This document shows positions 3 to 35,130 of a DNA stretch of 58,321 nucleotides, piece by piece. The number at the start of each line of letters is the position of its first letter. The first letter of the stretch is position 1. The notes below the pieces were generated by a model. It made no database searches and was not told the origin of the DNA. It worked only from the letters and a program-made list of their open reading frames with translations. The stretch comes from Caryophanales bacterium (GTDB taxonomy: Bacteria > Bacillota_I > Bacilli_A > RF39 > UBA660), in contig JAEEVN010000005.1 of the NCBI GenBank assembly GCA_016290885.1, positions 1 to 58,321 of the forward strand. The letters run 5' to 3'. The position numbers were made by a program, and so were the translations under genes.

Positions 3-725
3 ATAGAATTTAAGAATGTATACTTTGGATACCCAGATGAACAAGATATCTTAAAGAATTTTAATTTAAAACTTGAACCTAATAAAAAGATAGCTATAGT
101 AGGCAGATCTGGTCAAGGTAAATCTACATTATTTAATCTATTAACAAGAGTATTTGATGTAAGAAAAGGATCTATTACACTTGATGGTATAGATATAAAA
201 GATTTAGATGAAAAAACTATTAGAAAGAATATATCTATTATTAGACAAGAACCATTTATATTTAATAGAACTATTAAAGATAACTTTAAAGTAGTAAATA
301 AGAATATTAAACTAGATGAAATAAAAGAATATAATAAAAAAGCTTATCTAGATGATTATATAGAATCTTTACCAGATAAATATAATACATTACTTGGTGA
401 AGGTGGAGTAAATCTATCTGGAGGTCAAAAACAAAGATTATCAATTGCAAGAACTTTAACAAAAGATACTAAAGTAATTCTATTTGATGAAGCTACTTCT
501 GCACTTGATAACAATTCGCAAGAATATATTAAGAAAACTATTAATAATTTAGTTAAAGATCATACAGTAGTAATAGTAGCTCATAGATTATCTACTATCA
601 TAGATGCAGATGTTATTTATGTAGTAGATGGTGGTAAAATCGTGGGTGAAGGAACACATGAATACTTATTAAAAACAAATAAGATTTATAAAAATCTATA
701 TGAAACTGAATCTTTAAATTCATAA
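3..725 (+). CDS. ABC exporter, ATP-binding half (5'-truncated by window)
   Basis: C-terminal nucleotide-binding domain of a multidrug/lipid-type ABC half-transporter, which powers export across the membrane by ATP hydrolysis. The reading frame is open from base 3; the start and membrane domain lie outside the window. Visible motifs, in fragment numbering: Walker A GRSGQGKS (34-41), signature LSGGQKQR (about 138-145), Walker B VILFDEATSALD (about 157-168), and the H-loop His in VAHRLS. The motif set is complete, so the domain should be active. The fusion of membrane and ATPase domains is inferred from family architecture. An intrinsic terminator follows directly. The substrate cannot be told from this part. 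Confidence 0.9.
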   Translation: MEFKNVYFGYPDEQDILKNFNLKLEPNKKIAIVGRSGQGKSTLFNLLTRVFDVRKGSITLDGIDIKDLDEKTIRKNISIIRQEPFIFNRTIKDNFKVVNKNIKLDEIKEYNKKAYLDDYIESLPDKYNTLLGEGGVNLSGGQKQRLSIARTLTKDTKVILFDEATSALDNNSQEYIKKTINNLVKDHTVVIVAHRLSTIIDADVIYVVDGGKIVGEGTHEYLLKTNKIYKNLYETESLNS

Positions 726-752
726 AAAGATAGCTAATGCTATCTTTTTTAT
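726..752 (+). terminator. Intrinsic terminator after the ABC gene
   Basis: Stem AAAGATAGC/GCTATCTTT with a 4-nt loop, followed by a T-run. It begins at the stop codon of the ABC gene and insulates it from the toxin-like locus downstream. Confidence 0.8.
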
Positions 753-760
753 TTTCATAG

Positions 761-795
761 GGGGAATTTTTAAATTTAACGCGAATATAATATAT
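761..795 (+). promoter_or_regulatory. Promoter of the small-peptide mRNA, sigma-H-like motif
   Basis: GGGGAATT (761-768), 14 bases, then GAATATAATATAT (783-795). A housekeeping TATAAT can be read at 786-791, but the bases 17 upstream are GGAATT and not TTGACA. The same two blocks with the same spacing precede radC (34415-34449). The arrangement fits a sigma-H-type promoter (AGGAATT...GAAT). The start site would fall at about 797, the first base of the left inverted-repeat arm. The sigma factor assignment is inference. Confidence 0.55.
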
Positions 796-848
796 GGAGC
801 ATTTAAAGCTTAGTGTCTACCGACTTTTCTAGAAAGGAGGTGATATAG

Positions 849-935
849 ATGAGAAAACGTTTATACGTATTGAGTATCTTACTCTTTTCATCCATAATTT
901 TATATCTCCTATTACTAATAATAGAAGCAATGTAA
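849..935 (+). CDS. 28-residue hydrophobic peptide, putative type I toxin
   Basis: Encodes a basic start (MRKR), then a single hydrophobic span of about 20 residues (VLSILLFSSIILYLLLLII), ending IEAM. Length and make-up match membrane-acting type I toxins as a class, but I recognise no specific family. The SD is exceptional: bases 831-844 are a 14-base perfect complement of the 16S rRNA 3' tail, 4 bases before ATG. A CTCCT inside the gene (906-910) could mask it. The 3' untranslated region overlaps a convergent antisense RNA with its own promoter and terminator. Toxicity is inferred from architecture. A small membrane peptide with another role is possible. Confidence 0.7.
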   Translation: MRKRLYVLSILLFSSIILYLLLLIIEAM

Positions 936-967
936 AAAAAAGACACTTAAGCTTATAGCTTAAGTGT
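934..967 (-). terminator. Terminator of the antisense RNA
   Basis: Perfect 11-bp stem ACACTTAAGCT/AGCTTAAGTGT, loop of three, then U8 on the minus strand (A8 at 934-941). On the plus strand no T-run follows, so it acts only on the leftward transcript. The peptide mRNA should read through it. Confidence 0.75.
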
Positions 968-1013
968 TCAAACCAAAAAGGTAGACACTTAGTTATAAAC
1001 TAAATGCTCCTCT
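934..1013 (-). ncRNA. Putative antisense antitoxin RNA (~78 nt)
   Basis: A minus-strand promoter (1048-1020) predicts a start at about 1013. The RNA runs leftward through the right repeat arm and ends at a strong intrinsic terminator: an 11-bp perfect stem (943-953 with 957-967, 3-nt loop) followed by eight U. It is fully complementary to the 3' untranslated region of the peptide mRNA. It also begins with the same GGAGCATTTA...AGTGTCTACC sequence as the 5' end of that mRNA. This matches antitoxin RNAs that target the toxin message 3' end (txpA/RatA, bsrG/SR4 type). Ends are predicted from promoter and terminator only. Confidence 0.65.
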
Positions 1014-1019
1014 AAATAA

Positions 1020-1048
1020 ATTATAGCATAAAATAGTAATATATACAA
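1020..1048 (-). promoter_or_regulatory. Promoter of the antisense RNA
   Basis: On the minus strand, -35 TTGTAT (1048-1043), 17-base spacer, -10 TATAAT (1025-1020). This is a near-consensus housekeeping promoter and contrasts with the unusual promoter of the opposing peptide gene. Confidence 0.65.
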
Positions 1049-1613: not shown

Positions 1614-1823
1614 ATGGATAAGTTTAATAAGACCATTTATGGCTATGATCCAGTAGAAGTTAAAACTTACCTGGATGAAATTATCAGTTTAGTTGAAAAA
1701 GTAGTAGCATCTAATAAAGAAAAGAATAATGAAATAATTAGACTTAGTAAAGAATTAGAGGAAACTAAAGCTAAATATGATGAATTAAAAGACAATTTTG
1801 ATAAAGTTATTAATAATAAATGA
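1614..1823 (+). CDS. Short DivIVA-domain protein
   Basis: 69-residue protein matching only the N-terminal lipid-binding part of DivIVA (FNKTIYGYDPVEVKTYLDEI, about residues 4-23) followed by one coiled coil to the end. DivIVA usually exceeds 150 residues and has a second long coiled coil and tetramerisation tail, both missing here. GpsB is also short but keeps a C-terminal domain not seen here. The position between sepF and ileS is the usual place of divIVA. It ends with TGA, evidence that TGA is a stop in this genome. It may mark curved membrane or division sites, but the reduced form makes the role uncertain. Confidence 0.75.
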   Translation: MDKFNKTIYGYDPVEVKTYLDEIISLVEKVVASNKEKNNEIIRLSKELEETKAKYDELKDNFDKVINNK

Positions 1824-2022
1824 TAGAGACGAATATTTAAATACTTTTAAGAGAGTTAACGGTTGGTGTAAGTTAATAAGTTATAAATATTAGATCACTC
1901 TTGATATCCTTATTTGAATAATTAGAATAAGGCGTTTAACTAACGTTATAGTATAAGAGCATAGAAAGTCTATGAAGTAAGGTGGTACCGCCTAATGGGT
2001 CCTTACATCATAGACTTTTTTT
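1824..2022 (+). promoter_or_regulatory. T-box riboswitch, Ile specifier, upstream of ileS
   Basis: T-box leader that senses uncharged tRNA-Ile and controls ileS. Visible parts: the Stem I signature AGAGAGTT...GGTTGGTG (about 1850-1867), the specifier ATC (1906-1908), the T-box sequence AAGGTGGTACCGC (1979-1991), and a terminator whose 3' arm is TCATAGAC followed by T7. TGGT in the antiterminator bulge pairs with an ACCA acceptor end, as expected for tRNA-Ile. Boundaries are approximate. Confidence 0.92.
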
Positions 2023-34408: not shown

Positions 34409-34414
34409 TTACTA

Positions 34415-34450
34415 GGGGAATTATTCTTTTTTTAGAGAATATAATATATA
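34415..34450 (+). promoter_or_regulatory. radC promoter, sigma-H-like, leaderless
   Basis: GGGGAATT (34415-34422), 14 bases, GAATATAATATATA (34437-34450). Both blocks and the spacing match the promoter at 761-795. The expected start site (about 34450) falls on the radC ATG itself, and no SD lies before the gene, which points to a leaderless message. The sigma-H assignment is inference; the repeated motif is seen directly. Confidence 0.55.
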
Positions 34451-35130
34451 TGAATACATTAATTAAAGATATACCTATTTTAGATAGACCTAGAGAAAGA
34501 TTCATTAAATATGGAGTAATTAATCTAAGCAATGAAGAACTCCTCTCTATAGTGCTTAAAACAGGCTATAAAGGGTATTCTGTTAAAGATATATCAAATA
34601 ATATATTAAAAGAAATAAAAGATATAACAGATTTAAAAGAATTAACTATAAATAAACTTATTAGAATAAATGGAATAGGGGAGGTAAAAGCAATTACTCT
34701 ACTATCTGCTATAGAGTTAGGTAGGAGAGTATATTCTAATAAAAATAATATTATAATTAAATTAAATAATTCTAAAGAAATATATAATTATATAAAAGAT
34801 AAACTAATATATAAAAAACAAGAATATTTTTATTGTTTATATTTAGATACAAATAATAAATTAATTGAAGATAAATTACTATTTATAGGTACTCTAAATA
34901 AAGCTAATATTCATCCTAGAGAGATATTTAAATATGCATATATAAATGATTCTACTAAAATAATACTTATTCATAATCATCCCTCTAATAACGTTATTCC
35001 TTCTAAAGAAGATATTATTTTGACTAAAAATATTATAGATATAGCTAAGATACATAATATAAAAGTATTAGATCATATTATTGTAGGATTAAATAATTAT
35101 TATAGTTTTTATGATAATAATGATATATAA
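34450..35130 (+). CDS. radC: RadC-family JAB/MPN protein
   Basis: 226 residues. The N-terminal helix-hairpin-helix part (about 55-85, LIRINGIGEVKAITLLSAIELGRR) precedes a JAMM metalloprotease-like domain with His175, His177 and Asp188 (HNHPSNNVIPSKED) and a Glu in HPREIF. RadC is induced in competence in B. subtilis and streptococci, but its role is not settled. No SD precedes the ATG, and a -10 element ends five bases upstream, so translation is probably leaderless. It stands alone. Confidence 0.9.
   Translation: MNTLIKDIPILDRPRERFIKYGVINLSNEELLSIVLKTGYKGYSVKDISNNILKEIKDITDLKELTINKLIRINGIGEVKAITLLSAIELGRRVYSNKNNIIIKLNNSKEIYNYIKDKLIYKKQEYFYCLYLDTNNKLIEDKLLFIGTLNKANIHPREIFKYAYINDSTKIILIHNHPSNNVIPSKEDIILTKNIIDIAKIHNIKVLDHIIVGLNNYYSFYDNNDI

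Follow-up and report, generated by a model that had tools for sequence, protein, structure and literature searches.

The window analysed here, the whole 58,321-nucleotide stretch of contig JAEEVN010000005.1 from a Caryophanales bacterium (assembly GCA_016290885.1), contains two intergenic sites, at 761-795 and 34415-34449, which a preliminary description had singled out as copies of one shared promoter motif. One lies in front of a small cassette encoding a toxin-like hydrophobic peptide, the other in front of radC. We consider it very likely, from the sequence, that both are promoters read by a SigH-like sigma factor, which would drive DNA-related genes together with toxin-like cassettes. The features at the two sites are as follows (bp, base pairs).

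724-749, plus strand: intrinsic terminator of the upstream ABC-transporter gene.
760-791, plus strand: SigH-type promoter of the toxin-like cassette, with -35 GGGGGAATT at 760-768, an 11-bp spacer and -10 CGCGAATATAAT at 780-791.
796-821, plus strand: predicted start of the toxin mRNA and its 5' arm (GGAGCATTTAAAGCTTAGTGTCTACC), which can pair with the 3' arm at 980-1010.
823-842, plus strand: Shine-Dalgarno AAAGGAGGTG in a predicted hairpin (CTTTTCTAGAAAGGAGG).
849-935, plus strand: toxin-like hydrophobic peptide of 28 amino acids, MRKRLYVLSILLFSSIILYLLLLIIEAM.
980-1010, plus strand: toxin mRNA 3' arm, complementary to the 5' arm; the minus strand here encodes the antitoxin RNA's 5' hairpin.
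936-1012, minus strand: predicted antisense antitoxin RNA with two hairpins; terminator 967-943.
1020-1028, minus strand: promoter of the antisense RNA, an extended -10 (TGCTATAAT) and not of the SigH type.
34414-34445, plus strand: SigH-type promoter of radC, with -35 AGGGGAATT at 34414-34422, an 11-bp spacer and -10 AGAGAATATAAT at 34434-34445.
34450-35130, plus strand: radC (RadC/UPF0758 family).

Direct reading of the sequence confirmed the motif pair exactly as it had been described, and no other matches were seen in the window at up to three mismatches, the shuffle expectation being 0.02. Across the 1.11-Mb assembly, GGGGAATT-N14-GAATATAAT occurs in six exact copies, five before one repeated small-peptide cassette and one before radC, compared with none for the reversed control. 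When the exact motif was sought in all species genomes, the sole other match was in the sister species, and the exact 35-base form is therefore lineage-specific. Since the -10 variants GAATAATAT, GAATATTAT and GAAAATAAT occur at further sites, the core of the motif is GAATA and not TATAAT; the spacer between the two blocks is one base longer at some sites. To avoid circularity, a two-block matrix was trained on sites from other genes only, with the toxin and radC sites excluded. It gave the two reported sites the highest scores in the window, 33.8 and 28.8 bits, whereas the maximum in forty random 58-kb first-order Markov sequences, matched to the window in length and dinucleotide make-up, was 19.0 bits. 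The consensus from the matrix work is AGGGGAATT-N11/12-NGCGAATATAAT.

Applied to twelve genomes from the genus, a sequence profile found 16 sites in this one with an expectation value of at most 7.3e-4, the next match standing at 0.13, although many of the 16 had also been input to the profile; looser pattern searches and a weight matrix were used to approach the same set. Every one of the 16 lies shortly upstream of a gene on the same strand. The DNA-related genes downstream are radC, comK, comEA-comEC, dnaG-rpoD, topA and a UvrD-like helicase; there are also a C39 peptidase exporter, a MacB-like ABC transporter and a thioester/SpaA-type surface protein, as well as five toxin-like cassettes, a Bro-N protein and a small membrane protein. 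Profile sites at unrelated genes ruled out the motif as an element of the cassette only. Orthologous sites are kept in the sister species (G009) at topA, the C39 exporter, the adhesin, comK, comEA, dnaG, the helicase and toxin cassettes. The preliminary description had proposed a stress or competence regulon that includes the toxin, for which enrichment of the motif upstream of com genes in a genome-wide scan would speak. Such enrichment was found, before comK and comEA-comEC, and the regulon is supported with the toxin included five times over. Bro-N, KilA-N-like and ORF6N-like DNA-binding proteins, which are usual in phages, carry a SigH-type promoter in several genus members (L152:1192-2001 on the minus strand, L166, L170, L181 and L183; Pfam-checked for L152 only).

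Sigma-70 region 2 was found in three proteins only, namely RpoD, a 695-amino-acid protein (L029:376-2463, minus strand) in which it stands isolated, with no further recognised domain, and a 204-amino-acid SigH-like protein (G000:C4:64678-65289). The last of these is encoded directly after mrnC and rlmB, the position that sigH has in B. subtilis, and its best NCBIfam matches are SigH-type models, at scores below the equivalog cut-offs. SigH-like proteins are present in 10 of the 12 genus members. With this one SigH-like sigma factor encoded, the motif is a strong candidate for a SigH promoter: six mapped Listeria SigH promoters, including those of dnaG-rpoD and comEA-comEC, consist of a -35 AAAGGAATT, 11 bp and a -10 GGCGAAT, and the sites here have the SigH layout of a GGAWW(W) -35, 11-12 bp and an NNNGAAT -10 (PMC4754846), which bears out the sigma-H-like layout claimed earlier. 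Canonical SigH targets also carry the motif, with dnaG-rpoD preceded by it in 10 genus members, comEA-comEC as above, and spoIIAA in one relative, which has sporulation-type sigma factors. The set thus resembles the SigH (Spo0H) regulon of Bacillus, Listeria and other Bacilli in promoter layout (GGAWWW-N11/12-NNNGAAT), in dnaG-rpoD, comEA-comEC and spoIIA (in a relative), and in the sigma gene beside mrnC-rlmB. It differs in its -35, which is GGGGAATT here and AAAGGAATT there, in adding toxin cassettes, topA, the UvrD-like helicase and the C39 exporter, and in that comK itself has a SigH-type site, while comGA and dprA were not found.

By competence we mean here the regulation of com genes. 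ComK was identified (PF06338, 1.1e-44), and comK and comEA-comEC carry the promoter both here and in the sister species; the comK site occurs also in G001 and G003, and the comEA site in G006. A ComGA-type ATPase (PF00437) was not found in this genome, nor DprA (PF02481) in the twelve genus genomes, in searches that matched control genomes. DNA uptake is thus doubtful, and the SigH state may represent a competence program that has been cut back or put to another use. In the non-sporulating Staphylococcus aureus and Lactobacillus sakei, SigH acts on com genes; unlike there, the comG ATPase and DprA were not found here and toxin cassettes are present, none being reported in the available portions of those papers (PMC3486894, PMC3364868). 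In the comK promoter, GAAAATAAT replaces GAATATAAT in all four genomes in which it was seen (L071:2402, L154, L164 and L168), a conserved deviation in the -10 that may mean a weaker response to SigH. The usual place of dprA, between rnhB and topA, is empty here (L066, L080), and topA itself is immediately preceded by a SigH-type promoter.

The placing of radC in a competence-type regulon stood only in part. Its SigH-type site is strong here and, because the start codon sits at the predicted +1, the radC mRNA would be leaderless. Of the eleven genomes compared, however, this species alone has a strong site; four relatives have a degenerate one and six have none, and in six of the eleven radC comes after another gene, without the motif. 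We therefore rejected radC as a genus-wide member of the regulon; on its sequence it is a lineage-specific one, and, with the strong site confined to this species, it is the weakest argument for a regulon. The UvrD-like helicase (L067:2983-3018), like radC (window 34437-34450), starts at the predicted +1 of its SigH-type promoter, which would give a leaderless mRNA; relatives in which the site survives preserve this spacing for both genes.

Throughout the cassette family the peptide is hydrophobic and 28-33 amino acids long, and the ribosome site is perfect and lies inside a predicted hairpin. The 5' and 3' arms of a cassette pair better with each other than with arms swapped between cassettes (32 cassettes; 0 of 10000 permutations), and the synonymous fraction of substitutions is 0.60 against 0.24 expected (28 distinct coding sequences), indicating protein-level purifying selection, although both counts pool related pairs and are thus descriptive rather than independent tests. 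The hairpins of the antisense RNA covary across cassettes. This RNA is convergent, overlaps the 3' end of the mRNA and is predicted to have its own extended -10 promoter and its own terminator. A covariance model of it matches five cassettes in this genome and no more, each having a SigH-type promoter for the toxin, and also matches cassettes in many relatives; the match in the window, at 933-1031 (1.4e-18), is itself a training sequence. No known antitoxin RNA was found in the cassette with Rfam, whose sole match was a T-box leader downstream, before ileS (window 1811-2007, plus strand). The peptide had no match in Pfam or NCBIfam, and a scan of viral contigs with the pattern of the cassette's ribosome-site region found nothing.

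Given a short hydrophobic peptide whose substitution pattern marks it as encoded, and a predicted convergent antisense RNA with its own promoter and terminator, we suggest that the cassette is probably a type I-like toxin-antitoxin system, in which the peptide would be toxic and the antisense RNA would act as antidote. It shares convergent promoters, a short hydrophobic peptide, a hidden ribosome site and an antisense RNA with the Fst/par family, but the PXXXG motif and conserved tryptophan of Fst/Ldr toxins are absent from the window peptide and its aligned relatives, the arms are inverted and not direct repeats, and the antisense RNA has its own terminator (PMC7472228). The toxin promoter varies across the family. 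Cassettes of other genera, and a few of those in the genus itself, use an extended -10 (TGNTATAAT) or a similar housekeeping-type element for the toxin; several genus members have a weaker SigH-like promoter, its -10 reading TAATA or CAAATA. From the extended -10 toxin promoters of the other genera it appears that this lineage moved the toxin promoter, and not that of the antitoxin, to SigH; the distribution of promoter types suggests a change from housekeeping-type to SigH. An alternative sigma factor also governs the type I loci of Clostridioides difficile, which have SigB promoters on both the toxin and antitoxin sides (PMC6563280), whereas here the toxin side only has such a promoter and the factor would be SigH. 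No SigH-driven type I toxin was found in the searchable literature. In the sister species, three copies of the antisense RNA remain from which the toxin open reading frame and promoter are gone (L220, L221 and L222 of G009), the deletion beginning just behind the terminator of the upstream gene; L221 apparently occupies the position at which this genome has an intact cassette (C47). These copies are possibly orphan antidotes.

Several points weigh against SigH control as we propose it. The toxin and radC sites of several genus members have a degenerate -10, TAATA or CAAATA, and may respond only weakly to SigH; the SigH protein falls under the NCBIfam equivalog cut-offs; binding and transcription by SigH, and the toxicity of a peptide that matches no known family, are predictions. 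The -10 elements of both window sites also contain TATAAT, so that some reading by SigA is possible. Taken further, this would make the sites SigA promoters, with TATAAT at 786-791 and 34440-34445 as the -10 and GGGGAATT as the site of an activator or repressor such as ComK or another factor. The perfect TATAAT at both sites, 17 bp from GGAATT, is what such promoters would show, but we think this improbable, since at other sites the TATAAT is lost (GAATAATAT, GAATATTAT, GAATAAAAT and GAAAATAAT) while GAA and GGGGA are kept, the -35/-10 spacing is fixed at 11-12 bp as in SigH promoters (PMC4754846), and the sites coincide with known SigH targets. Still less probable is that the motif belongs simply to a repeated mobile cassette, that the copy at radC is the remnant of a deleted one, and that there is no regulon. 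Five of the six exact matches do lie in copies of one cassette, and partly deleted cassettes occur in relatives, yet the sequence evidence contradicts this origin: ten further sites besides radC stand before unrelated genes in this genome, the same genes carry the motif in the sister species, and beside radC there is no copy of the antisense RNA, whose model matches the five cassette loci only.

The nature of the peptide is a separate matter from the promoter. It could be a membrane peptide that serves regulation or signalling in the SigH state, with the antisense RNA adjusting its amount, and the want of any known family and of the Fst hallmarks in the window peptide would fit this. We regard it as unlikely, though clearly less so than the two alternatives for the promoter, because a multicopy convergent cassette with a Shine-Dalgarno hairpin, 5'-3' pairing and an antisense RNA is the usual anatomy of type I systems (PMC7472228), and because relatives retain orphan antisense RNAs after loss of the peptide reading frame, a pattern expected of antidotes.

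Under the SigH reading that we prefer, RNA polymerase with active SigH would start near 796 to give the toxin-like mRNA and near 34450 to give the leaderless radC mRNA, and would also transcribe comK, comEA-comEC, dnaG-rpoD, topA, the UvrD-like helicase, the exporters and four further cassettes. The ribosome site of the toxin-like mRNA is predicted to be hidden by the hairpin and by 5'-3' pairing, and the product of its translation would be the membrane peptide of 28-33 amino acids. The convergent antisense RNA, from its ordinary extended -10 promoter, would block the toxin mRNA through the overlap at the 3' end. Because the toxin promoter alone is SigH-type, a pulse of SigH would shift the ratio upward, raising toxin mRNA relative to an antitoxin that stays at its housekeeping level, and the excess of toxin would slow or arrest growth during DNA processing.

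It has long been asked under what conditions chromosomal type I toxins are switched on. The promoter logic proposed here, with the toxin under SigH and the antitoxin under a housekeeping-type promoter, offers a direct and testable answer. The C. difficile SigB loci set a precedent for type I systems under an alternative sigma factor (PMC6563280). The cassettes of other genera, with their extended -10 toxin promoters, are a natural before-and-after comparison. The SigH regulon, worked out here purely from sequence, is that of an uncultured lineage with a small genome, which appears to have kept comK and comEA-comEC while no DprA is detected in it. For the genus as a whole, we would put at about even the chances that a type I cassette widespread in the family had its toxin side moved to SigH while the antitoxin RNA was kept under housekeeping control, several redundant toxins thereby joining the SigH/competence state, where they may serve, for example, to arrest growth during DNA uptake or repair.
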